From the NCBI GenBank assembly GCA_009829735.1, contig CM020620.1, positions 6,032,593 to 6,096,592 on the forward strand: a DNA stretch of 64,000 nt, given 5' to 3'. Shown piece after piece: positions 42,953-58,303 of the stretch; within the stretch, counting starts at the first letter, position 1, and each line of letters opens with the position of its first letter. Source of the DNA: Pyropia yezoensis (Eukaryota > Rhodophyta > Bangiophyceae > Bangiales > Bangiaceae). A model generated the notes under the pieces. That model was not told the origin of the DNA, did not search any database, and saw only the letters and a list, made by a program, of their open reading frames with translations. The position numbers and the translations under genes are program-made.

Positions 42953-44956
42953 TCACTTGCTGGATGCGTACATCGCCTCCAGGGATGCCTTGTACTTCTT
43001 CGACAGCTGCGGGCGCTTGTACTTGAACGTGGGCGTCAGCAGGTCGTTCTCCACGGTGAAGCCCTGCCCCAGATCGTTGACTTCCGTCTCAAACAACAGG
43101 TCGCGGATCTCCTCGTAGCGCTTGAACTTGGCAGTGACGGTCATGGCCTTCAGCTCTTCCAGTACCGCCTTCTTGAACGCGGGCAGCGCCGCAATGGCCG
43201 CCAACCCCGCCGACACCTTGTCCGGCGCGTTCTTGGCAGCCCAGGCCTTGGCAACGATCGGGTCGGGCACCACCACAGCAAGGAGGGTCGCCTCAAAGGA
43301 GGAGCCATACACCCAGATTTGGCTGACAAGCTTGCACTTGGCGTACTCTTGCTCAAGCGCCTCGGGCGACACGTACTCGCCCTGCGCAAGCTTGAACAGG
43401 TTCTTCTTGCGATCAATGATCTGTAGCGACCCGTCCTCATTCCAGCGGCCAATGTCGCCCGTCGCAAAGAAGCCATCCGAGTCAATGGCGGCCGCGGTCG
43501 CCTCCTCGTTCCGGTAGTAGGAGCGAGTCACAAACGGCCCCCGCACACAGATCTCGCCCCGCGGACATGGCTTGTCGGCGGCTGTGTATTCCATGTCGGG
43601 CACGTCCACCAGCTTGACTTCCGCACCAGGCAGAGGGCCCCCGCAAGTGCCGGTCGGGAAGTTGGGCGCCGTGCAGCACATGCCGCCCACCGTCTCAGTG
43701 AGGCCGTAGCCTTGCAGGACGGGACACTTGAGGCACACATTGAGGAAGTCGTTGGTTTGAGCCGACATGGGCGCGGAGCCAGTGATGACAAGACGGCAAT
43801 TGGGCAGGAGCTTGGCGCGCACCTTGTTGAAGATGAGCGTATCCCACAGCCCGCTCCGTGGCGTTGCATTCTGAACTGACGCCAGCACAGAGGAGTAGGC
43901 AATGTCAAAAAGCTTCCGCTTGAGCCACCCCGACGTCTCCACCGTCTCCATGATTCGCTGCTGAAAGCGTGCAAACACCCGCGGCACCCCCGCAAACACA
44001 GTGGGCTTGGCCACCTCCAGGTCATTCAGCAGCAGCTTGACGTCGCCCTGGTAGTAGGCCACCGAGCCGCCAGCGCAAAAAATGAGCGCCTCCCCCTGCT
44101 GCGCAAAAATGTGAGCCAGGGGGAGGAAGCTCAAAAGCGTGTCGGACGAATTCAACTCAATGTTGAAGTGCTTGAAGAAGCGAAGCGCGCTGGCCACCGA
44201 CGAGACAAAGGCGCGGTTCTGTAGCGTCACGCCCTTTGGATCCCCGGTCGTCCCGCTCGTGTACATGATGACAAAGAGATCTTCCCAGCCCGACGGCGAT
44301 GCAACCGCATCGGTCGCCCCCGTGGCCAGGAGAGCCTCCATAGTGACGACTTCCCCGGCCGCCACCGATGGCAGCTGCTTGGTAGTCGCCGCAGCGGGGA
44401 TGTCCCCAGACTCCATGACCACTACTTTGGTCACGGAGGGGCACTGTGGGCGAGCGGCCAGGAAGTTGGGCAGGTTGTCCACCGACGAGAAGACCACTTT
44501 CACCTCGGCGTGGTTGATCACGTACTCGACCGCATTCGGCCCCAGCGAGTCGTACAGCGGCACCAACACCAGGCCCTGAGAGGAGCACGCCAACTGCGCC
44601 ATGCTCCAGTTGGGGCAGTTCTTCCCGTATACCCCAACCCGGTCGCCCTTGACCAGACCGCCAGCCACCAGAGCCGAGCCGAGGCGCAGCGCCGTCTCGT
44701 TCACCTTGCTGTAGCTGTGAAAAACATAGTCGCCAGCCACACCCGCCGCGCTGATCGGCCGCCAGCCGAGGCAATTGGCGGTAGGCTGCCTCTTGGCGTA
44801 ACGGGCAATAAAGTCGTACGTGGTGCGGATCGTCTCGCCGGGGAAGGGCTGCTCATCTGCGGGTAAGTAGCCACAAGTGCGGACGGGCGACTCGCCTGCG
44901 CGCATTGGCTCGGCTGCCGCGGTCGACAGCTCCACCTTGGACCGCAGGGACGCCAT
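42953..44956 (-). CDS. Long-chain acyl-CoA synthetase
   Basis: A 667-aa adenylate-forming enzyme that activates fatty acids with ATP and CoA for lipid synthesis or beta-oxidation. Landmarks in order: P-loop-like YTSGTTGDPKG (about 232-242); LSFLPLAHIFAQQGE; ITGSAPMS; QGYGLTETVGG (about 414-424); GEICVRGPFVTRSYYRNEEA; TGDIGRWNEDGSLQIIDRKK (about 499-518) with the hinge aspartate in IIDRKK; and the LACS-type continuation FKLAQGEYVSPEALEQEY. The length and the E-Y-V-x-P-E motif are typical of eukaryotic long-chain synthetases. The ATG at 44956 (MASLRSKVELST) is chosen; the frame upstream has no ATG. There is no clear membrane anchor or targeting signal. The end (MYASSK) is not a canonical peroxisomal signal. 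Single exon. Confidence 0.95.
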   Translation of the reverse strand: MASLRSKVELSTAAAEPMRAGESPVRTCGYLPADEQPFPGETIRTTYDFIARYAKRQPTANCLGWRPISAAGVAGDYVFHSYSKVNETALRLGSALVAGGLVKGDRVGVYGKNCPNWSMAQLACSSQGLVLVPLYDSLGPNAVEYVINHAEVKVVFSSVDNLPNFLAARPQCPSVTKVVVMESGDIPAAATTKQLPSVAAGEVVTMEALLATGATDAVASPSGWEDLFVIMYTSGTTGDPKGVTLQNRAFVSSVASALRFFKHFNIELNSSDTLLSFLPLAHIFAQQGEALIFCAGGSVAYYQGDVKLLLNDLEVAKPTVFAGVPRVFARFQQRIMETVETSGWLKRKLFDIAYSSVLASVQNATPRSGLWDTLIFNKVRAKLLPNCRLVITGSAPMSAQTNDFLNVCLKCPVLQGYGLTETVGGMCCTAPNFPTGTCGGPLPGAEVKLVDVPDMEYTAADKPCPRGEICVRGPFVTRSYYRNEEATAAAIDSDGFFATGDIGRWNEDGSLQIIDRKKNLFKLAQGEYVSPEALEQEYAKCKLVSQIWVYGSSFEATLLAVVVPDPIVAKAWAAKNAPDKVSAGLAAIAALPAFKKAVLEELKAMTVTAKFKRYEEIRDLLFETEVNDLGQGFTVENDLLTPTFKYKRPQLSKKYKASLEAMYASSK

Positions 44957-46884
44957 CGCTGGGCAATTGGTGGGGACAGGGGAGACGGGCACGAGGGCGA
45001 CGCGACTGCAACGAAGGGGTCACTGTCGCAGACTTGCCGTCGTCGACGCAGGGATCGTATGACTTGGGCGAGGGAGACGCGCTCTTGGGGCTGAAACGGA
45101 ACACCAGGGTCCGATCACGAGCAGGCTCGATGGCGGGGGGGCACTCTCAGATACTCGCGCTACACTGACAGGACCGGACCTGCACGCAGTCGCTCGCGCC
45201 ACACAGACACAGCGTGTATCCGGATATCTCCACAGCGCACGATTCGCGCAGAGGTGTCCTCTCTCTCCTCTCCCGTGTCGTCCGCGGCGTGGTCCCGCCT
45301 GGGAGTGTTGACACAAGACGCTGTCACACTTGTGTCATACCTGCGCAAGGGCGACTCGAGAAGCAGGCTGCCATGAGTCCACCAACGCAGCATGGCTGTC
45401 AGCGCGAGGAGTGCGTTGAATGGAAGGCAAGCCTAGCGCGAGGCTGCGACCATTCGCTGGTTGATGAGCTCATAGCTGACTGACACTGGGGAGACGCCTG
45501 ATGACAAATGACAGCCTGTGTGAGGACCACAATGAGGTAGATATGCGGCACTTCTGTAAGTACGATGAACCATCAAAACGTCTATAGAATGGATTACTTA
45601 CTAGCAAAGCTACGTACGATGAGGGCGCGCTTAAGGCCAATACGCGGCCCTCAATCGCTCTGGGAATACCCCCAGTAGGGGCGCTGATTGGTCCATAGCA
45701 GGGTCGGCCCCGGGAAGCTCGAACAGCTGTGGGCCGCACGTTGAGCGGTATTGTGCCAAGATTGGTCGATGAATAGCAGGCGAATAGGCAAGTAAATTGT
45801 ATCGACTTAACTTTTATGCGATTGGAAGTACATGAGGTGCGTGTACCTATAGTGTGTGAAAGCTCGCGCCACTCGGCTGTGGCTCGCCTAAAAATTAGGT
45901 GGGGAGCGCGGCAGGAGTCAGTTGTCGGCGGCCGATGGCGCGCGCTGCTGGTTTCTTGGACGCGAAGTCGATTGCTGTCTACTGCACTTGGGCAATACGT
46001 CCATCGACATGGACCCGTCTTGTCCAGGACGGGACTTTTTGCGGACCGCTGCCCCATCTGTCGCCGTGCCCTCGACTCGTACGCTCCATGCCTTGTCCCC
46101 CAACGCCGCTCTCGTCCCTCTCCTTTCCCGCAAGACCCCCTGACCCTTACAACCTCCCCCTCACCAGCAGTTGCGGGACGCCTCGCTCTTGCCGAAGCCA
46201 CTTCAGCCGCTGGGGATGCCATATGTATCTCCCAGCGGCTCCGTAAAGTTGCCAGTGCGGGGCGCTGGTGCGCCCCCTGACGGTCCTGCGCCGCACTGGG
46301 AACAACAGCGGCGCTTGCCAGAACGACGCGGCTTCGTCATCGCACGCGGGGAAGGGGGTGGCGGGAGATGACAGGGCGTGAGAGGGCATAGGAGGGGAGA
46401 CGAGGCGGTTGATCAGTCGGGGAGCTGATGTGTTGGTTGTGCAACACGAGAAAGGGACGCGGAAGGATCTACGGCATCTGCACCAAAATGTGGGCCAGAG
46501 TTGGACCAGAGTATGTAATGGATACACGACTTGTTGAGATCCCGGTCAGACGGCGAGGACTTTGGGGCGTTTTTTGTAGTGCGCGTTCGGCCAAACGTTG
46601 GAGCGCGAAGCGCCCACCTTTTCCCCCGAATGCCGGACGTTCCAGCGTTCGTCGTTCGGGGGAAAACGGCGTGGTGCGGAACAAATCTGAGCAGTCGAGG
46701 TGGATTCGGAGGGGTGGGGTGCGTTCGAGCCGGCAGTGTTTTTTTTTGCTCTTTACCAGCAGACGAGCTACGTCATCCCTGCTGCCTACCCCCCCGAGTT
46801 CTTCCCAGCTCGCCCACACGTGTATACTGCGCGGCGGTCCCAGAGCGTGGCCGCGGTGGTTGTCGTCCCACCTCCCAGGCGTCC
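44957..46884. promoter_or_regulatory. Divergent upstream region of acyl-CoA synthetase and DnaE-like genes
   Basis: About 1.9 kb between two divergently transcribed genes. It has less extreme base composition than the rest of the window. ATTGG/CCAAT-type motifs are at about 45685, 45762 and 45820. No additional gene is convincing. Part of the right side may be 5' UTR or an N-terminal extension of the polymerase frame, which is open from 46531. Confidence 0.45.
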
Positions 46885-49800
46885 ATGTATTATTTGTTTG
46901 TTGCCCCTTTTGCGAGGTATTCGGCGCAACCCGTTGCTGTTGTACCGGGTGGTGCGTGCCGTCGGGTCCCTGCTGGTGGGGTCTCTGCCAGACAGGCTCT
47001 GTCGGCGTCGCGGCTGGCATTTTCGTCCTCCTTGCGAGGCCACTTAGGTCGCGGTCCGCCCGGCCGCTTGTCCTTCTTTTCCGACAGCCTGCGTCTTCCT
47101 GCCCATCCATGTGGGCCTGCGAATGAGGCACCCCCTGGGGTGGAAGACGCAGGGCACAGCTGTCGGCGTCATGGCGGCGCCTTTGTAATGCTGGCCTTCC
47201 CCGCGCGGGGTGTTGTTGCTGAAGCGGTGCCGTCTGCGGCTGACGGCGGGTCTGCTGCACCCCTCCCGTACGTTCCCCTTCACGTCCACTCTGACTACTC
47301 ACTGCTAGATGGCGCCAGCCGGCTGTCGGACTTGGTTGCCCGTGCGTCTGAGTTGGACACCCCCGCTCTGGCCTTGACCGATCATGGCGTTCTGTACGGT
47401 GCAATTGAGCTGGTCCGCACATGTACGGCGGCGGGGGTCAAACCCATTGTGGGCAACGAGATGTACGTGGTCAACGCGCCGCTGGGTGACGACGCTGTGG
47501 GCAAGAAGCGCTTCCACCTGACTGTCCTGGCCAAGAACACGACTGGCTACCGCTCCCTCGTGGCGCTAACGACCCGCTCTCACCTGGACGGGTGGCCAAA
47601 GCGAGGCGGTATGTTCTCTCGCCCAGCCATCAACAAGGAACTCCTCGCGAAGCATGCGGACGGGCTCATCATTGCATCGGGGTGCCTGAGCGGAGAAATT
47701 CCGCGCGCCCTGCTTGCCAACGACTGGGAGGAAGCGCGGCGGGTGGCCGCTTGGTACCGGGACACTTTTCCAGGTGACTTTTACCTGGAGCTCCAGGACC
47801 ATGGTTTGCCACAAGACGTGGTTGTCAACAAGGGCGTCGCGGCTTTGGCGAAGGAAATGGACCTGCCGTTGATCGCCACCAATGACTCTCACTTCACGTC
47901 TGCACAAGATGCTGCCGCCCACGACGCACTCATCTGCATGCGCACAGGGAAAAAGCTGGCGGACAAGGCGCGCCTCGTCTACACGGGCCACGAGTACTTC
48001 AAGTCCACCCCACAGCTGCTGGATGCGCTGGCCCGTACCCTCGACCCTGACGTGGCGCTCGAGGCTCTCCGCAACACGGTGGCGATTGCGGACAAGGTGT
48101 CGGCTTATGACATCCTGGGAGAGACGCGCATCCCCGACTTTCCCATTCCCGACTCGTTCGCGGTGGGGGCTGACGATGCTGCCCGCTCTCACTCCGCCTA
48201 CCTCCGCCACGTAACGCTCGAGGGGCTGGCTGCCCGGGCCCGACGCAGCAATATTTCCGAGGAGCGGTTGGCCAACGAGTATATGCCGCGTCTTACGTAC
48301 GAGCTGGACATGCTTGAGCGGATGGGCTTTCCCTCCTACTTTCTCGTCGTTTGGGACTTCATCCGCTTCGCGCGGGAGGAGGGCATCCCGGTTGGGCCCG
48401 GCCGCGGTTCCGCCGCTGGCTCCCTCGTGGCCTACGTCCTGAACATCACGACGGTGGACCCGCTGGTACACGGTCTCCTCTTCGAGCGTTTCCTCAACCC
48501 CGAGCGGGCGAGCATGCCTGACATTGACACGGACTTTTCTGTTGAGGGTCGCGAGAAGGTCATCCAGTACGTGACGAGAAAGTACGGGGAGGACCGCGTT
48601 GCGCAGATCATAACGTTTGCGCGCATGACGTCCAAGGCGCTTCTCAAGGACGTGGCGCGGGTGCACAATGTCAAGTACTCTGAGGCTGACCAGCTCGCCA
48701 AGCTCATCCCGGTTGTGCGGGGGAAGCCCGCCACTTTGGAGCAGCTATTGTCCAAAAACACCCCGTCGGCCGAGTTCAAGAAGGCCTACACGTCACAAAC
48801 CTACAAGGTGTGGGTGCCAGATGAAGAGGAAGCTGGTGTGATCGAAGGGGAAGACGGCGAGATTATTGAGTCCCATGCGGATGAGCTGCCCGCGCCGACG
48901 GCAGCGGTAGTACCGAAACGGCGGCGCGTCAAGGTGGAAACGTCTGGCGTAGACGGCGTCGGTGGCGTCTGGGAGACACGCAAATTCCGCGACCTGATTG
49001 ACAAGGCCAAGCGCATTGAGGGTACCAAGAAGTCTTACGGTGTTCATGCTGCGGGAGTCGTCATCTCATCGCGGCCGCTGGCTGAGATTGTTCCTCTGTC
49101 GCGGGGCAAGAATGGGGAGACCATCACCCAGTACGCGATGGAAGACGTTGAGGCGCTGGGGCTGCTGAAGATGGACTTTCTCGGCCTCAAAACGCTTTCC
49201 ATTATTGACGATGCCGTTAAGCTCATTAACTCACGGCGGGTTGCGCAGGGCCTGCCTGCCGACGTGGATGTGTCGGTGGACGCGTTGCCGATGGATGACC
49301 AGCCAACTTACGACCTGTTGGCCAGCGGGAAACTGTACGGCGTTTTTCAGCTGGACGCGTCGGCGGGCATGCGCTCCATTGTGCGGCAGCTGCGGCCGTC
49401 GTCGCTGGCCGACATCTCTTCCATCCTTGCGCTGTATCGGCCCGGCCCGCTTGACGCGGGGCTCATCCCCAAGTTTATTGCGCGCAAGCACGGGCGGGAA
49501 GCCATTGAAGTGGTCCACCCGCTGCTCAAGCCCATCCTAGAGGAGACTTACGGCATCCTAGTGTATCAGGAGCAAATCATGCGAGTAGCACGGGAGCTGG
49601 CTGGCTACTCCCTGGGTGAGGCTGACATTCTGCGTCGCGCCATGGGCAAGAAGAAGGTCGACGTGATGGAGCGGGAACAAGGTCGCTTTGTGGCTGGCTG
49701 CGTGTCCAACGGGGTACCCGAAGGCGTGGCGACCGACCTCTTTGCGCAGATGCTGCTGTTTGCGGAGTACTGCTTTAACAAGTCCCACTCGAGCTGCTAC

Positions 49801-52800
49801 GCCTACCTTACCTATCAGACGGCATGGCTCAAAGCCAACCACCCTGTTGAATTTTTCACCGCGCTCCTGCGCGCTAACGTGACGGCGTCGGACAAGTTGG
49901 GGCGCTACGTCGTCGACGCGGACGCTGCACATGTACGGGTTCGACCGCCCGACATTAATCGCAGTGAGCTCGGTTTCACCCCCGTCTATGACGAGGAAGA
50001 TGAGGGCGGTGGTCCCAAGCGCTACCGCGGCGCCATCCTGTTTGGTCTAGAGGCTGTGAAGACTGTTGGTGCTACGTCGGCGCTGCCGCTTATTGAAGAG
50101 CGGCGACGGGGCGGGCCGTTCCGCAATATCGCAGACATGCTCGCGCGGCTGCCGAGTAGCGTCATCAACAAACGTTCGCTGGAGGCTCTCGTTTCTTGCG
50201 GCGCCTTTGATAGCCTCCACGACAACCGGCGGGCACTGCTCGACGCGTTGCCTCACATGCTCGTTCTTCGCAAGCGCTCCACCGAGCGGGGGCGTCGGTT
50301 GGACAAGCGAGCCGTGACGGCGGCGGACAAGGCGGCGGTGGCGGCAGGCGGCACTGCCCCTGCAGGTCCCGAGGCGGTCGCTGCCGCTCGGGCGGACCTG
50401 ATGGCGGCAGCCAAGTGGGTGACTGATACGGCCAAGGAGCAGGAGTCATGGGATGAGCTGGAGCTGAGCATTTCTACCGCCGCCCGCGATACGCCCGACT
50501 TTCCCCTCCAGACGCGGTTGCAAATGGAGAAGGAGATGCTGGGCTTTTACGCCTCTGCCCATCCGCTTAGCAACCTGGGCCCCGTGACCGACCTACTGCG
50601 CCCCACCTCGCTGGTGGACATTGTCGGCTCGGACGAGACTTCGGAAGATGGTGTCGACCTAGATGTGGAGCCGGGCCTGAACGCTACGACGGGGGGCGAC
50701 GCTGTTGGTGGCGGCTCAGGGCGCCACGTGGTCGTCCGACGGACTGACGCGGCAGTGGGCAGTGATGTCGTCGACGCGAGGAGCGACGACCGGGCGTTGA
50801 CACCGTCCCCCCCGCCGCTCGCCGCAGTGCACACCGCTTCTGTGGTCAAGGAGGGCACAGAGGTGGTCACCCTCGGATTGGTGACGGGCCTCAAGATGCT
50901 CAAAACTTCTGCGCGCAAGCAGCTGATGGCTACGTGGACGCTGGAGGACGAATCGGCCACCCTCGCTGCGGTGGCTTTCCCATCCACCATGCCTGTTGTG
51001 CAGCCGGCGCTGGCTGACGAGGCGAGGGTGCTGTGCTGGGGCAAGGTGCAGCGCGACTCTGGCGGCTACACCCAGCTGATTGTCGACGACGTCCAGCGCG
51101 TCCGGTCTGCGTCAGTGTTGCTGCTGACCCGCACCCGCGATACGCCGCACTCGGGCATCGATGATCTGGGGGAGCAAGCGGGCTTTTTGGTGCGTGGTGT
51201 GACGGGCGCCCAGCCGAGCAGTGCGAGTGATCGAGGTGGTGGCAACCGCCGGACGTGGCGGAAAAAGGTGGACCTCGATACCCTGCCCCGCATCGCCGTG
51301 GTCCTGGACGCGGGTGACCCGGCAGGGGCAGCGGTGGGCGACGGTTCCCGTGAGCGCATCTACCTCGGCAACCACTGCCGTGTCCACGAGTCGCATTTGG
51401 GGCTGGTGGGGCGGGCGGTCGAAAAGATGGGCTGCACCGCCACTCTCATCCACCTGGGCGACCACTTTGCTGTCGACGCCGACGCGGACGAGGTGACCTC
51501 CGAGGCGGCCGCCGCGGCCGAGGCGGCCGACGCGGCCGAGGCGGCCGACGCGGTCGCGGCACCAGTGGCCGCGGTGGCGGGGCCGCGCGCTGCGGGGCCC
51601 TTGCCGTCCGACCATGCCGGACCTCCGTCGTCGCCGCCGCCACCGTCGTCGCCACCGCGGCAGCCTCCTCGCGGCGGCGGTGGCGGGTCGTCGGCCGCGG
51701 CGCTTCGGCGACCAGCGCCACCGCCCGCGGAACCGCCCGCCGCGTCCGTTGCACCAGTGGCCGCGACGGCGCCCGCCGTGGCGGCCACCGCGGCGGCACA
51801 GCCGGCGGTGACTCCCCCCTCCCCGGCGACAGCCTCGACGCCCGCGACTGGCGCCGCGCCCGTCCAGCCGGCGGGGGTGGCGGCGGCGCAGGCCCCCCTC
51901 GCCGTCGCGGGCGGCGTGGTGGCGTCGGCGGCCACGGTGGCGGCCAGCGTGTCTGTTGCCGCCCCCCCCTCGGCCGCTGCGGCGCCGCTGTCAGCGGTGC
52001 CGGCGGCCATGAGCTTTTGGGGCACCGCCACCCCCGCCCCTGCACCGTTGGCGGCGGCCGCCGCTCCCGCCGCTCCCGCCGCTCCGGCGGCGGCGGGAGC
52101 TGTGGCGGCGGGGACGGCCCCTTCCGCGGCGACCGCGGCCGGGGTGGCCCCGCCGGCCGGTGCGGCGGCCGCACCCCGCACGCGGGGCGCGCTGCCGCGG
52201 CGGCCGCGGCCAGCCACACGGTCGGCTGCAGAGGCGGCGGCGGCCATGCCGCCGCCGTCGCTACCACCACCGGCGGCCGCTGCCGCCGCCCCTCGTGGCA
52301 CCCTGCCCCGGCGTCGCGCCTCTGCGGCCGCCGCCGCGGCTGCCCCGCTGCAGCCGCTGAATGTCGCGTCGCCCGCCCCCGTCCCAGCGTCAGCTTTGAC
52401 AACGGCGGCGGTGCCCCCCCCCACGGCGGCCGTGTCGTCGGCGGCGCCGCCGGCGTCGCGACCACCGCCACCGTCACCCCCGCCGCCCGTGACGGCGGCG
52501 TCGTCTCTGTCAATGCCGCAGGACGTCCCCCTCCCGGTACCCCCCCCTGTGGTACCCTCCCCCACAGAGGTGGGCGCCCTCCCCCCCACCCTCTCCCTCA
52601 ACGCCGTCCTTGCCGCCGCGGGCTCTGCGCCCGCCGCCGCCGCCGTTGCGGCCGCCGACGCGGCCGTCGCCGCCGCGGCCGCCGCCGGCACGGGCGCCGA
52701 CGCGCCGTCGCCCGCCCAGGCGGCAGCCGCCGAGCTGCGGGCGCTCGACGCAGAGAACGCGCGCCAGCGGCTCGCCGCGACTGTCCGCCCCGCGGCGGAG

Positions 52801-53229
52801 CGGACAGCGGCCGAGGCCGCCGCCGCCGCTGCCGCCGCGTCTGACGCTGCCAATGACGCTGCCGCCGACGCGGTGGCGGCGGCGGCGGCGGGGGTGGACC
52901 GCCCCTTTCGGTACATGGCCGCCGCGACGCTCCTCGAGCTGGACCGAGCCGCACGGTTGGCCGACACGCGCGCCGAGGCGGCAGCCGCCGCCACCGCCGA
53001 GGGGGACGTGGTGACCATGCGCGCGCGGCTGGTGGCGATCCGCGCCGCCGCCGCGGAGACGCGGTCTGCGGGTGGCCCGCCGGGGGGGGCGGGGGGGGTG
53101 GCGCCCGGGCAACCGGGGGGGGGGACCCCCGCCGAGGTGCCGCTCGTGGCGCGCCAGGCGGCGGCGCGCGAGCCGGGGGGGGGGGGAGGGCAGCCGGTGC
53201 GGTCATCGCCGTCGACGCCGCCGGCGTGA
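46885..53229 (+). CDS. Bacterial-type DNA polymerase III alpha subunit (DnaE-like) with long Ala/Pro-rich tail
   Basis: Predicted 2,114 aa. A family-C replicative polymerase core is complete: PHP domain (PLHVHSDYSLLDG, ALTDHG, GNEMYV, ATNDSHF); palm with GPGRGSAAGSLVAYVL and the catalytic pair D548/D550 in MPDIDTDF; the third acid D764 in KMDFLGLKTL; GVFQLDASAGMRSIV and ALYRPGPLDAGL; GILVYQEQIM; the NKSHSSCYAYLTYQTAWLKA block; tandem HhH region; and an OB fold (VTLGLVTGLKMLKTSARKQL). The core ends near residue 1,535. About 580 Ala/Pro-rich residues follow, with a coiled-coil-like end. An insert at about 655-690 contains PKRRRVK. Start choice: the ATG at 46885 gives an Arg/Ser/Ala-rich leader like an organelle presequence; 46630 and 47188 are alternatives. 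Nuclear DnaE genes are unusual; an organellar role is inferred. Confidence 0.9.
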   Translation: MYYLFVAPFARYSAQPVAVVPGGACRRVPAGGVSARQALSASRLAFSSSLRGHLGRGPPGRLSFFSDSLRLPAHPCGPANEAPPGVEDAGHSCRRHGGAFVMLAFPARGVVAEAVPSAADGGSAAPLPYVPLHVHSDYSLLDGASRLSDLVARASELDTPALALTDHGVLYGAIELVRTCTAAGVKPIVGNEMYVVNAPLGDDAVGKKRFHLTVLAKNTTGYRSLVALTTRSHLDGWPKRGGMFSRPAINKELLAKHADGLIIASGCLSGEIPRALLANDWEEARRVAAWYRDTFPGDFYLELQDHGLPQDVVVNKGVAALAKEMDLPLIATNDSHFTSAQDAAAHDALICMRTGKKLADKARLVYTGHEYFKSTPQLLDALARTLDPDVALEALRNTVAIADKVSAYDILGETRIPDFPIPDSFAVGADDAARSHSAYLRHVTLEGLAARARRSNISEERLANEYMPRLTYELDMLERMGFPSYFLVVWDFIRFAREEGIPVGPGRGSAAGSLVAYVLNITTVDPLVHGLLFERFLNPERASMPDIDTDFSVEGREKVIQYVTRKYGEDRVAQIITFARMTSKALLKDVARVHNVKYSEADQLAKLIPVVRGKPATLEQLLSKNTPSAEFKKAYTSQTYKVWVPDEEEAGVIEGEDGEIIESHADELPAPTAAVVPKRRRVKVETSGVDGVGGVWETRKFRDLIDKAKRIEGTKKSYGVHAAGVVISSRPLAEIVPLSRGKNGETITQYAMEDVEALGLLKMDFLGLKTLSIIDDAVKLINSRRVAQGLPADVDVSVDALPMDDQPTYDLLASGKLYGVFQLDASAGMRSIVRQLRPSSLADISSILALYRPGPLDAGLIPKFIARKHGREAIEVVHPLLKPILEETYGILVYQEQIMRVARELAGYSLGEADILRRAMGKKKVDVMEREQGRFVAGCVSNGVPEGVATDLFAQMLLFAEYCFNKSHSSCYAYLTYQTAWLKANHPVEFFTALLRANVTASDKLGRYVVDADAAHVRVRPPDINRSELGFTPVYDEEDEGGGPKRYRGAILFGLEAVKTVGATSALPLIEERRRGGPFRNIADMLARLPSSVINKRSLEALVSCGAFDSLHDNRRALLDALPHMLVLRKRSTERGRRLDKRAVTAADKAAVAAGGTAPAGPEAVAAARADLMAAAKWVTDTAKEQESWDELELSISTAARDTPDFPLQTRLQMEKEMLGFYASAHPLSNLGPVTDLLRPTSLVDIVGSDETSEDGVDLDVEPGLNATTGGDAVGGGSGRHVVVRRTDAAVGSDVVDARSDDRALTPSPPPLAAVHTASVVKEGTEVVTLGLVTGLKMLKTSARKQLMATWTLEDESATLAAVAFPSTMPVVQPALADEARVLCWGKVQRDSGGYTQLIVDDVQRVRSASVLLLTRTRDTPHSGIDDLGEQAGFLVRGVTGAQPSSASDRGGGNRRTWRKKVDLDTLPRIAVVLDAGDPAGAAVGDGSRERIYLGNHCRVHESHLGLVGRAVEKMGCTATLIHLGDHFAVDADADEVTSEAAAAAEAADAAEAADAVAAPVAAVAGPRAAGPLPSDHAGPPSSPPPPSSPPRQPPRGGGGGSSAAALRRPAPPPAEPPAASVAPVAATAPAVAATAAAQPAVTPPSPATASTPATGAAPVQPAGVAAAQAPLAVAGGVVASAATVAASVSVAAPPSAAAAPLSAVPAAMSFWGTATPAPAPLAAAAAPAAPAAPAAAGAVAAGTAPSAATAAGVAPPAGAAAAPRTRGALPRRPRPATRSAAEAAAAMPPPSLPPPAAAAAAPRGTLPRRRASAAAAAAAPLQPLNVASPAPVPASALTTAAVPPPTAAVSSAAPPASRPPPPSPPPPVTAASSLSMPQDVPLPVPPPVVPSPTEVGALPPTLSLNAVLAAAGSAPAAAAVAAADAAVAAAAAAGTGADAPSPAQAAAAELRALDAENARQRLAATVRPAAERTAAEAAAAAAAASDAANDAAADAVAAAAAGVDRPFRYMAAATLLELDRAARLADTRAEAAAAATAEGDVVTMRARLVAIRAAAAETRSAGGPPGGAGGVAPGQPGGGTPAEVPLVARQAAAREPGGGGGQPVRSSPSTPPA

Positions 53230-54252: not shown

Positions 54253-54675
54253 TTAGATGATCCCCTTCTGGGCGGCCGAGATGGTGACCTCCTTGCCAAC
54301 GGCGAGGCCCTTGTCTCTCGTCGACGCCGGCAGGCCGCCCTTGTTGGCCCACGCCGCCGCCGCGCGCTGGCGCCTGGACAGCTTGGACGCCACCACCCGC
54401 ACCGCATCCGACCGGCTGCGCGCCCGCCGGCCGCGGGCCGAGCGCGCCGACCGGCTCGTCGGGCCGCCCGTGTAGGACACGCACGGCAGGGAAAAGGTGG
54501 CCGACACCTGGACGCCAAACGGTGGCAGCGTGTCAGACGCGGCCACGTTGCGGTCGCGGTGCTGGCCGCCATAGTCGGCGGCGTTGTGCTTGGCCTGCCA
54601 GTCGGCGTAGGTCTTGTCGATAAAAGCCTGGTGCAGAAAGTAGATGGGGTCGTTGGCGCCCGTCTTGGGATCACC
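54253..54675 (-). CDS. Tyrosinase-like secreted protein, exon 2
   Basis: The last 140 codons. It starts after CCACAG|GGTGAT and joins in phase to exon 1. It carries the C-terminal part of the CuB helix: NDPIYFLHQAFIDKTYADWQ, where canonical enzymes have DPIFFLHHxxxDRxWxxWQ. H447 is kept, the second His is Gln, and the D-K-x-Y-x-x-W pattern is retained. Then a basic, Arg/Ser/Ala-rich extension (RSARSARGRRARSRSDAVRV) runs to the end. The total protein is 572 aa. Confidence 0.85.
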   Translation of the reverse strand, partial: GDPKTGANDPIYFLHQAFIDKTYADWQAKHNAADYGGQHRDRNVAASDTLPPFGVQVSATFSLPCVSYTGGPTSRSARSARGRRARSRSDAVRVVASKLSRRQRAAAAWANKGGLPASTRDKGLAVGKEVTISAAQKGII

Positions 54676-54982
54676 CTGTGGAGGAGAAAATGGCGGGAGA
54701 TGGAGAGGAAAAGGGGGAGGGAGACAAGAGCGGGGAGCCAACGCAATGATCCCAGGCACAGCAGAGAAGCAGAGAGCACGACAATGCAACGGGGCGCGGG
54801 TGGTCAGTCTCAACCCTGGACGCTCTCGACGACAGACGCTGCGCCCACCAGCGCAACCCCCCCAGCCGCGCCAGACCCACACCCTCACTCTCAACCCTCC
54901 ACGCCGGGCATGTGCGCGCACTCGCCTCCCCCGGCGCGGCGTGTGCGCACTCACCCCCCCACTTGGTGCCGCTAAAACGTAC
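54676..54982 (-). other. Intron of the tyrosinase-like gene
   Basis: A 307-bp GT-AG intron in phase 0. The donor is GATATG|GTACGT at 54983/54982 and the acceptor CCACAG|GGTGAT at 54676/54675. Its removal restores the tyrosinase CuB region (SPGDM-GDPKTGANDPIYFLH). Confidence 0.88.
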
Positions 54983-56278
54983 CATATCTCCCGGCGACTC
55001 GGTAAAGAGGCCGCCAACGCCGACAAACACAAACGAGGAGGACACCTCAATGGTGGCCTCAAAGTCGGCATAGGTGTCAATTTCATCCACAAAGCCGTCG
55101 AGCACCCCCTGCTCGTCGAGGAAGGTGTCTTCCATCCCCATCTCGACCCGCGCGTCAAAGCCGCGGGTCACGCAGCCGCCCCCACCCACCGACTTTTGGA
55201 TGCCCGCAAACGGCCCGTCGGGGATGCACTGGCCGCGCTTAGCACCGCCGGCCAGGTCGGTACCCCACACGGGGTCAATGGCCGGGTCAAAGCCGTCGGT
55301 GGACCACGCCCAAAAGGGGAGCGCCACCGACGGGTCCACGTAGCGGAGGGCGTCCTCCAGCTCCAGCAGGAACAGCCGGTGCCACGGCAGGTACTGGGAG
55401 CCCCCGTGGGCGGCCTGCACATTGTTAAACAGCGCCTGGGCAATCGTCTTGTACGCGCCGCTGGCAATGATGGCCTTAAAGGCGGCGGCCAGGCGGCTCT
55501 TCTCCCCCGCGTTCAGGGCGGTGGTGGCCTTGCGCACCCGCTTGTTCCCCGCGTTGCAGTTTTTCAGCCCGTCCCCAAACGCCCACGGCTTGCGCGCCGG
55601 GGTGGGCGACGGCGTCGGCTTGGGCGTCGGCTTGGGCGTCGGCTTCGGCGTCGGCTTGGGCGTTGCCGGCACACCGCCGCCCCCCACCGGCGGCTTGGGC
55701 GGGATGGTGTCCAGGCCGCACTTGACCTTACCACACCACTTGACGTTGCACGAGTACTTTTGCACCCACCTCTTGTAGCAGTTGCTCCTGCCGCCGTTCC
55801 CGCCGTTCCCACCATTCCCGCCATTGCCGCCATTGCCACCACCGCCCCCGTTGCCGCCATTCCCCCCATTCCCACCGTTGCCGCCATTCCCACCACCGCC
55901 ACCATTGCCACCATTGCCGCCATTGCCGCCATTGCCGCCATTCCCCCCATTGCCACCATTGCCGCCATTGCCGCCATTGCCGCCATTGCCACCGTTGCCA
56001 CCCCCCCCGCCACCGGGGCACACGTCGTCCTGCACCCACCTGTTGCGGCAGTCCTGGCCACACGGTTCGGTCACCCAGCAACAAAACTGGCGCTTGGGCG
56101 TGCCGTAGCCCCCCCAGCAGGTGGGTGCCCGGTACTGCTTGGCCGCCGTCGCCAGGTCGCCGCCCGACGTGACACCGACCGCCGCGGCCGCCGTCAGCGA
56201 CGCGGTCGCGGCGGCAGCGGCGGCGGCGGCGGCGGCGGCAGCGGCGACCAGCGTCGCTGCCATGGGGTGGCACCCCAT
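54983..56278 (-). CDS. Tyrosinase-like secreted protein, exon 1: signal, Cys modules, (GGN)n array, CuA-like region
   Basis: The first 432 codons. An Ala-rich hydrophobic N-terminus (MGCHPMAATLVAAAAAA...) looks like a signal peptide. Two related Cys-rich modules (CRNRWVQDDVCPG and CYKRWVQKYSCN) flank a long Gly-Gly-Asn array. Then comes a (KPTP)n linker and the tyrosinase domain (from LNAGEKSRLAAAFKAIIASG). The CuA region has AAHGGSQYLPWHRLFLLELE with H291 and H300, spaced as in tyrosinases, but the first CuA His is not found. The CuB HxxxH is replaced by SSSFVFVGVGG. So the copper sites look incomplete and phenol oxidase activity is doubtful. The repeats suggest a cell-wall or extracellular-matrix protein (inference). 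The ATG at 56278 is followed by a second, at 56263. Confidence 0.85.
55790..56003. repeat. 9-bp coding minisatellite encoding Gly-Gly-Asn
   Basis: CCGCCATTG-type units (sense GGNAAYGGN) repeat about 23 times, with occasional loss of Asn giving longer Gly runs. It lies inside the tyrosinase-like gene, in frame. Confidence 0.92.
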
Positions 56279-58303
56279 GATGAGGATGAGGCTGCTGGGG
56301 GTGGACGGAGAGGAGGGGGGGCGCGGGCGAGGGGGGAGGGGGAGACCAGTGCGTAGAAGGGGGGAGCGCGGGCGGGGGGGGAGGAGGGGGAACCACAAGG
56401 TCACCAAGAGGGGTTGGGGGCAGAGGCCCACACGCCTTGCCGGCAGAGTGGGGGTCGCAGCGGCCGCCTCGTGAGGCGTCCCGGGACAATGACAGGTGTG
56501 GGGGGGGGGGGGGGGGGGGGGGGATCCACCGCTGCCGGCGGCGGTGCTGCTGGCGGATGTGACGGCAGGGTGGGGCGCCGTGTGGCAGCCGTCCCCCCCG
56601 CTGGTAATGTATTGTACGTGCGCGCCGCGGGGTGTGCGCGGCGAGGGGGGAGGCGCCCGGCGGGCAGTGCAGGCAGGCAGCTCCGGGCAACCGGCGGGGG
56701 CGCAGTGCCGTCTGCCGGCAGGCGGCCGGGCGGCCGGGCGGGCCGGCTGGCGGGGGGCGGACGTGCGTAGGGGGGGGGGGGGGGTGCCGTATGCCACCGC
56801 GCATACCCGGCCGGCCGGGGGGAGACTGTCACTGTCGCTGCCCCCCCCACCCCCCCCCCCCCCCCCCCCCAGGGGGGGGGGGCCGCCGCGCCCCCCCCGC
56901 GGGGGGGCCCGCGCCGGGCGCCCCGCCCGGGGCCCGCGGGGGGGGGGGGGGGGGGGTTGGGTGGGGGGAGGGGGTGGAGGTGGGCGGTGGTGGGGGTGGC
57001 GGTGGACGGTGGCGGACCCAGTGGCGGGGGGCCTCCCTCCCCGCCCCTGCCACGGCCTTGCTCCCTCTCCCTCCACCCGCAACCTCCCCCCCGCCCCCTG
57101 CCTCGTGAGGCGGCGGCGGCGGGGGTAGGGGACGCACAGCGGGGGGGGGGGGGGGTTGCCACAAAACGGGGCGGCCAACAGGGGGCTATCCCCCGCCACG
57201 TGGCGGCTGTCGCGCCGCCGCCGCGCCGCCGCTCGCCGGCGGCGGCCGCCCCACGGCGGCAGGCACCTAGGCGCGCGGGAAGGGGGGGGGGGGGGGGGGG
57301 GGGGGGCGGATCAGCCGGGCGCGGCGGCCCTTCTCCCCCCCCTCCACCTCCCGCCGCGTCGTCGCTCCCCGCCTACAGCCCGCGTCTCCCCCCTCCCGGC
57401 CCCCTTCCAGTGGTGGAGCGCCTTGCACGCCGCATTGCTGGCAGCGGGGGTGGCAGGCCCCAACAACGCGGCACAGCACCCCCCCCGCGCCCCCCCTCTC
57501 CCCACCACCCTCGGCGGCGGCGGCGGCCGCCCCGCCCCCCCTTTGCCCGTGGCGATTGCCTCTGTGGCACAGTGAGGGTGGTGGTGGTGGTGGTGGTGGG
57601 GGTGGTGGTGGTGGTCGGGTGGGTGGGGCGGGGGTGGGTGGGGTGGGTCGGGTCACCCTACGGTGGTGGGGTGGGGGGGAGCTGTGGAGCGGCCGGCCAG
57701 CGGGCTCTGCCTGCAGCGGCCCCGACGGGCACAAGCCTGCGCGCGCGGCCGGCGGGCGGCTGGCCAGACGAGTGGCGGCTCACGCTTGACACCACCGATA
57801 GAGCAGACGATGGGGGCGCTGGGGCCGATGGGGGTGCCGTCAATCCCGGGACAGCGCATCCGGGGGGGGGGGGGGGGCGGCCCTGCACGGCGCGCCGACG
57901 CCCGTTGCGAGGCACCCCACCACCCCAGCCCAGCCCACCCCTTCCCCACGCACGCCCAGGCGAGGCAGAGAAACACGCAGACACCCACCCACGTCGCCAC
58001 GACAACGACTGCTGGCAGCGACGAGGGGCTGACGACACCATGGATCGGCAGTTCAATGCAATCCGTGAGCATTTTTTTCCTTTTCCGTAGTTGAGTCCAC
58101 AGGGAACTGCCGGCCTTTGAGATCAACTCTTTTCACGGGCTGCCGTTGCTTCCCAGACGATTCTCCCTGGCGATGGACTCGGCCGTACGAGCCTGTGCTC
58201 GCGGGCGCTCCAACCCCCCGCGTCCCCGACGCGTCCCCCACCCCCCGGGCACCTTCCGCACGCCCTCGTCCCTCCCTTCCCCCCCGCAACACTCCCCAAA
58301 GGC
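56279..58303. other. Divergent upstream region, homopolymer-rich
   Basis: About 2 kb between the divergent tyrosinase-like and pseudouridine-synthase genes. It holds long G or C runs (56500-56523, 56777-56787, 56846-56870, 57142-57155, 57283-57306) and GTGGTGG tracts (57570-57615). No gene is supported; the large open frames are compositional. Confidence 0.5.

Follow-up and report, generated by a model that had tools for sequence, protein, structure and literature searches.

A cyanobacterial-type DNA polymerase III alpha gene without the clamp-binding motif in the nuclear assembly of the red alga Pyropia yezoensis

We analysed a 64,000-nucleotide stretch of the red alga Pyropia yezoensis (GenBank assembly GCA_009829735.1, contig CM020620.1, forward-strand positions 6,032,593 to 6,096,592; hereafter the window), in which an earlier note had recognised dnaE, the gene for the alpha subunit of a bacterial-type DNA polymerase III (Pol III), in an otherwise eukaryotic setting. 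Pfam and NCBIfam matches, sequence motifs and a predicted fold confirmed this identification, and the locus encodes a complete DnaE-type family-C polymerase, including the C-terminal domain, with all the catalytic and PHP positions that we checked intact. What is new relative to that note is the loss of the clamp-binding motif, together with the apparent absence of genes for the clamp and the clamp loader. All coordinates are window positions, P. yezoensis is the only red alga examined, and the papers cited below, by PubMed Central number, are represented by parts of their text.

The DnaE locus and its frame

The features of the locus, followed by the two neighbouring genes, are these:

47188..~51550, + strand: DnaE (family-C DNA polymerase III alpha), the part best supported as coding, from Pfam/NCBIfam, codon bias and C-terminal homology
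46885..47187, + strand: leader proposed in the earlier note, in frame; non-coding by codon score, a noisy test
47188..47268, + strand: 27-residue N-terminal extension (MLAFPARGVV...APLP) ahead of the PHP domain; its fourth residue is Phe (from the sequence)
47278..47802, + strand: PHP domain, nine of nine ligand-type positions intact (Pfam, alignment)
48199..49185, + strand: polymerase core (DNA_pol3_alpha) with the palm aspartates (Pfam, alignment)
48514-48537, + strand: MPDIDTDF, palm aspartates
48805..48969, + strand: alga-specific acidic insert, predicted to be disordered (alignment; predicted local distance difference test, pLDDT)
49165-49197, + strand: LKMDFLGLKTL, palm aspartate
49192..49713, + strand: fingers domain (Pfam)
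49438-49461, + strand: RPGPLDAG
49564-49581, + strand: YQEQIM
49759..49791, + strand: FAEYCFNKSHS, uninterrupted (alignment)
49933..50238, + strand: HHH_6 helix-hairpin-helix domain (Pfam)
50407..50475, + strand: site of the lost beta-clamp-binding motif, AKEQESWDELELSI against, for example, cyanobacterial AKDRASGQGNLFDL, with an Ala-rich expansion before it (alignment)
50917..51096, + strand: OB-fold domain (Pfam just under cut-off, alignment)
51551..53229, + strand: Ala/Pro-rich low-complexity tail of the open frame, from composition, with no in-frame stop before 53227
42953..44992, - strand: neighbouring AMP-binding (acyl-CoA synthetase-like) gene (PF00501, 1.3e-84)
54256..57199, - strand: neighbouring tyrosinase domain over two overlapping frames (PF00264)

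The PHP, DNA_pol3_alpha (2.4e-90), finger (3.2e-57) and HHH_6 domains scored above their Pfam cut-offs, while OB fell just under (25.3 versus 27 bits, 1.4e-05), its region being supported by the alignment; Pfam and the alignments together put these domains, the marginal OB included, in DnaE-type order. The best NCBIfam model was PRK07374, 'DNA polymerase III subunit alpha' (1357 bits, below its own cut-off of 1653), and two others passed theirs: TIGR00594, a superfamily model, with 1138 bits, and PRK05673 with 1137. We take PRK07374 and the split forms PRK09532 and PRK07373 to be the models for cyanobacterial DnaE. The family-C blocks listed in the earlier note (MPDIDTDF, KMDFLGLKTL, RPGPLDAG and YQEQIM) were all located in the frame, and the alga keeps the three catalytic aspartates, which are invariant in all 48 rows compared. 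Our choice of the nine PHP ligand-type positions reflects what we take these ligands to be, and the Escherichia coli row differs from the tested residues at five of these positions. AlphaFold2 gave a 1197-residue model (mean pLDDT 76.7, predicted template modelling score 0.72) that matched solved structures of bacterial Pol III alpha, namely 2hpi (E 1.5e-77) and 2hnh (template modelling score 0.90 by target length), and a sequence search of the PDB likewise returned bacterial Pol III alpha chains.

Two places in the protein deserve separate mention. The insert region spans 110 residues in the alga versus 47-64 in 17 aligned rows, and model residues 516-570, which are the alga-specific insert, have a pLDDT below 50; inside it, at 48913-48936, lies PKRRRVKV, which in our judgement resembles a classical nuclear localisation signal. 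Further on, FAEYCFNKSHS is presumably the split intein insertion point of many cyanobacterial DnaE proteins. In the interrupted dnaE genes the N-half matches stop at query residue 840, and the other rows read through uninterrupted. We rejected this site as proof of an intein-bearing ancestry, since Melainabacteria rows with no interruption share it.

The gene lies in an open reading frame at 46531-53229 (+), with its stop at 53227-53229. Synonymous codons were scored in 300-base intervals (step 200), the score being trained on 1720 codons from four stretches elsewhere in the genome. Between 47381 and 51880 the DnaE frame was the best of the three forward frames in all 22 intervals and its score was positive in 19, the remaining three being -1.5, -0.7 and -2.8. 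Upstream, the intervals starting at 46581, 46781 and 46981 (46581-47280) scored -30.4, -29.8 and -12.5, and because of this negative bias the ATG at 47188 is more likely to be the start than the one at 46885, where the earlier note had placed it. The test gives no sharp start, since the interval 47181-47480 scored -7.4 even though it spans the certain beginning of the PHP domain. The stretch 46885-47187 is probably non-coding, or partly intron: GT at 46917 and AG at 47087, picked by eye and joined by script, delimit a candidate whose removal is in frame to ATG 46885, making an in-frame intron at 46917-47087 possible.

At the other end, homology to the bacterial C-terminus reaches ~51450 in the alignment. 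Past ~51900 the DnaE frame has no consistent codon bias, and as the GC content there is ~76-82% the test has little power, leaving translation of the tail after ~51550 (Ala accounts for 201, and Pro for 99, of the final 560 residues of the open frame) ambiguous. The leader and the Ala-rich tail, once offered as arguments for a nuclear gene, are thus weak ones, the first scoring as non-coding and the second being ambiguous. The 27-residue extension that follows ATG 47188 is a possible short transit peptide. An N-terminal Phe motif is reported for plastid precursors of P. yezoensis in the available part of PMC2222254, and Phe-4 in this single short extension would be weak evidence of plastid targeting.

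Clamp contact, clamp and clamp loader

At the clamp-motif site the alga has an Ala-rich expansion and then WDELELSI, and the QxxLF pentapeptide is absent. The pattern Qxx[LIMF][FLYM] is kept in 105 of the 106 bacterial rows that span the site (135 minus 29 too short, counting near-identical rows and multiple loci from one genome) and Qxx[LIM]F in 100; in a dereplicated set the pentapeptide occurs in 36 of 37 bacterial rows. The sole exception is the DnaE of Roseofilum halophilum, with SGPNLFD where its relatives have SGQGNLFD. Outside this site, Q..[LIM][FY] matches the algal frame just once, at QMLLF, which adjoins the conserved FAEYCFN site, and the PCNA-type PIP box pattern has no match in the frame.

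We then searched the 107.5-Mb nuclear assembly, whose three largest contigs (43.59, 34.33 and 29.39 Mb) make up 107.3 Mb, and in which this dnaE is the only family-C locus found. Read exon by exon, the assembly gave no match to PF00712 or TIGR00663, the models of the sliding clamp gene dnaN, each of which detects matches in 10 of 14 control genomes. The same kind of search for the bacterial clamp-loader gene dnaX gave six matches in the nuclear assembly, none over the cut-off. Four of the six were scanned, and all were best as RFC small subunits in NCBIfam, with Pfam DNA_pol3_delta2 also matching three of the four; the two unscanned matches adjoin scanned ones. We rejected these RFC-like loci as a bacterial loader. 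By three tests (motif, dnaN and dnaX) the algal DnaE thus stands outside the clamp-dependent holoenzyme class, and its sequence is best read as that of a putative clamp-independent Pol III alpha.

Chromosomal setting and phylogenetic origin

Bacterial contamination or a chimeric assembly join would be suggested by the bacterial type of the enzyme and by the epiphytic bacteria that live on seaweeds (PMC8752119, in part). Against this, the locus lies 6 Mb inside a 29.4-Mb contig (29.39 Mb), flanked by eukaryotic-type genes, its codon bias is host-like, alga-specific inserts are present, no clamp or loader genes were found alongside it, and no compared bacterial row exceeds 59% identity over the 858 tree columns, far from the near-identity to a bacterial symbiont that the earlier note had said would undo its claim. 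On chromosome context, host-like codon usage and this divergence, we therefore rejected contamination as very unlikely. The assembly itself is described as built from DNA of isolated nuclei with PacBio, BioNano and Hi-C data, bacterial scaffolds having been removed (PMC7423979, in part). The two flanking genes, which the earlier note had called eukaryotic, match PF00501 and PF00264. PF00264 reached 7.4e-13 in the first frame and 0.00045 in the second, just below the cut-off; because the tyrosinase domain is split over two frames, ending in a different one from that in which it starts, this gene probably has introns.

A GTDB scan, from which we kept 80 loci of at least 587 relatives (42-55% identity), gave 75 with cyanobacterial names; the other five were three Melainabacteria, one Actinobacteria and one 'bacterium' by title, the last two falling with the Melainabacteria in the tree. 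Two names call for comment: the Actinobacteria-titled contig with its Melainabacteria-like DnaE is probably a mislabelled genome bin, and 'Microcystis elabens' FACHB-917 clusters with Synechococcus lacustris in the DnaE tree, so that its name may be wrong. Capture of a phage or viral polymerase might be considered, given that family-C polymerases are found in viral contigs. The 28 viral matches were only 27-41% identical in their best segment, as against the 42-55% of the 80 kept GTDB loci, and the tree consists of bacterial rows and the alga; we rejected a viral origin as highly improbable.

For the phylogeny, 135 bacterial DnaE rows were reduced to 48 under 78% identity, plus the alga, and the standard tree, from which 11 distant outgroup rows were omitted, had 38 rows and 858 columns. 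In this core phylogeny, of the kind proposed in the earlier note, the alga fell within the photosynthetic cyanobacteria with support of 100/100, apart from the Melainabacteria, above the early-branching lineage L036 at 98/96 and, with 94/93, as the sister group of Synechococcus/Prochlorococcus; its branch has a length of 1.59 and its composition is unusual. Upon SR4 recoding it shifted to the base of the photosynthetic cyanobacteria, and the cyanobacterial rows, L036 included, were all united without it at 96.6/97. The sister relation to Synechococcus/Prochlorococcus looks compositional, since it is lost on recoding, and we do not trust it as evidence of a late transfer. Of four alternative placements put to approximately unbiased (AU) tests, three were not rejected, with the alga beyond all photosynthetic cyanobacteria (p 0.27), beyond the crown (p 0.10) or joined to L131 (p 0.076), and the fourth, with the alga grouped with the non-Synechococcus crown, was borderline (0.047), so the tests leave its position unfixed.

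We read the algal DnaE as a probable deep divergence of unsettled position, which would be expected for a gene of plastid age and is not proof of one. Among the origins first put forward, the plastid ancestor is the likeliest source, an ancient cyanobacterial transfer is possible in the tree, and contamination falls away. A later horizontal transfer, in which red algae or the Bangiales would have received the gene from some cyanobacterium that was not the plastid ancestor, with the clamp contact then lost and an accessory role taken up, would fit the sister relation at 94/93 and the AU value for the non-Synechococcus crown. It would also fit two reports, that the DNA-polymerase row for Cyanidioschyzon merolae lists only POP (in the available text of PMC3914683) and that P. 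yezoensis has 51 Bangiales-specific prokaryotic transfers (PMC7423979, in part), which may or may not include dnaE. With the alga at the base of all photosynthetic cyanobacteria after SR4 recoding, on a very long branch, with no close donor among the compared rows and with host-like codons, such a transfer seems to us possible but rather unlikely.

A proposed role beside POP

Other replication genes were found in the nuclear assembly: a long frame for DnaG that contains the zinc finger, core and Toprim domains, a GyrB-model match over the cut-off, and two family-A polymerases, one Pol I-like and one POP-like with a 3'-5' exonuclease domain (we infer these names). A second DnaG-like locus (C3:18723294-18723661, -) is broken over several frames. 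Compared by eye, it is almost the same as the intact DnaG at C3:7366724, of which it is a duplicate that has decayed or been frameshifted. Two DnaB_C matches were set aside, as Pfam prefers AAA_25 and TIP49 for them; in NCBIfam their best models are DnaB-type, far below the cut-offs. In C. merolae, according to the available text of PMC3914683, the gyrases and DnaG are targeted to the plastid, DnaB is encoded there, and POP, dual-targeted, is the sole entry in the DNA-polymerase row of the table. POP is held to have replaced Pol III in plastids (PMC3914683, PMC6523293 and PMC8227023, each in part). Among the open-access literature matches listed, which leave aside subscription papers, supplements and GenBank annotations, nothing described a DnaE encoded in the nucleus of a red alga.

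We propose that the gene most likely passed from the plastid ancestor to the nucleus by endosymbiotic gene transfer and that its product would be imported into the plastid, where it would extend primers laid by nuclear-encoded DnaG behind plastid-encoded DnaB and may proofread through its own intact PHP domain. With no clamp and no loader the polymerase should be distributive, so that it would work as a clamp-free enzyme alongside POP, unlike the processive bacterial holoenzyme. The most economical assumption is that it acts in the plastid with DnaB and DnaG, because these partners are also reported to be cyanobacterial in origin. For this reading as a whole (a nuclear DnaE from the plastid ancestor, imported into the plastid, clamp-free and beside POP) we see about an even chance.

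Several points weigh against it. The grouping with Synechococcus/Prochlorococcus would fit a later transfer, and the AU tests leave the position of the alga open, even outside all photosynthetic cyanobacteria. The N-terminal extension is short if the start is ATG 47188, and the longer leader is without coding bias. PKRRRVKV, inside the protein, might direct it to the nucleus. With Pol I-like and POP-like genes in the same genome, the plastid replicase could be an enzyme other than DnaE. The searched assembly, moreover, contains neither the plastid genome nor the bulk of the unplaced contigs, which total 5.5 Mbp according to the genome paper (PMC7423979, in part); the plastid-genome paper PMC3667073 names dnaB, and the word dnaN is absent from its main text, as far as that was available.

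From the sequence, DnaE could also serve in repair or gap-filling beside POP, or in another compartment. One form of this idea, a repair or translesion polymerase of the nucleus or mitochondrion whose clamp contact was lost with the change of compartment, draws on PKRRRVKV, the stretch in the alga-specific insert that resembles a nuclear localisation signal, on the weak N-terminal targeting evidence and on the other organelle-type polymerases. We consider it improbable, since the likely partners DnaG and GyrB are of kinds described as plastid enzymes in C. merolae (PMC3914683, in part), the frame has no PCNA-type PIP box pattern, and the NCBIfam error-prone-polymerase model scores 574 bits versus 1357 for PRK07374.

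The plastid reading has a bolder form, which we put forward tentatively: red algal plastids may never have finished the switch from Pol III to POP, and a clamp-free, loader-free DnaE with PHP proofreading would still copy plastid DNA with DnaB, DnaG and gyrase. We know of no bacterium with such a minimal Pol III replisome, lacking both clamp and loader.

Cyanobacterial DnaE shares with the algal protein the domain order, the catalytic and PHP residues, the FAEYCFNKSHS site, the C-terminal domain and, at 100/100, the photosynthetic cyanobacterial clade. The algal gene differs in being nuclear with host-like codon usage, in the lost QxxLF motif, in carrying inserts within the polymerase core and ahead of the clamp site, in a possible Ala/Pro tail, and in that no dnaN or bacterial dnaX was found in the assembly. 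POP has the same proposed role, organelle DNA synthesis, but belongs to an unrelated family, and the POP-like gene is separate in the algal genome. A further comparison is the plastid dnaX of Rhodomonas salina, which we take to be a clamp-loader gene. It too is a bacterial Pol III component in a red-lineage alga, but it lies in plastid DNA and is attributed to lateral transfer (PMC3667073, in part). The Paulinella chromatophore has, like the alga, a cyanobacterial DnaE inside a eukaryote, but there DnaE is organelle-encoded, as are beta, delta, delta-prime and gamma/tau (PMC9450145, in part).

DnaE is a known kind of enzyme; what appears new, from sequence comparison, is the loss of its clamp motif where no clamp or bacterial loader was found in the nuclear assembly. 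The presence of an intact Pol III alpha of cyanobacterial type in the nucleus of a red alga runs contrary to the published replacement account, and would mean that the replacement in plastids was incomplete or that some of it was undone later. The joint loss of the clamp motif and the clamp gene predicts a clamp-independent family-C polymerase, testable both in a cultivable seaweed and in vitro.

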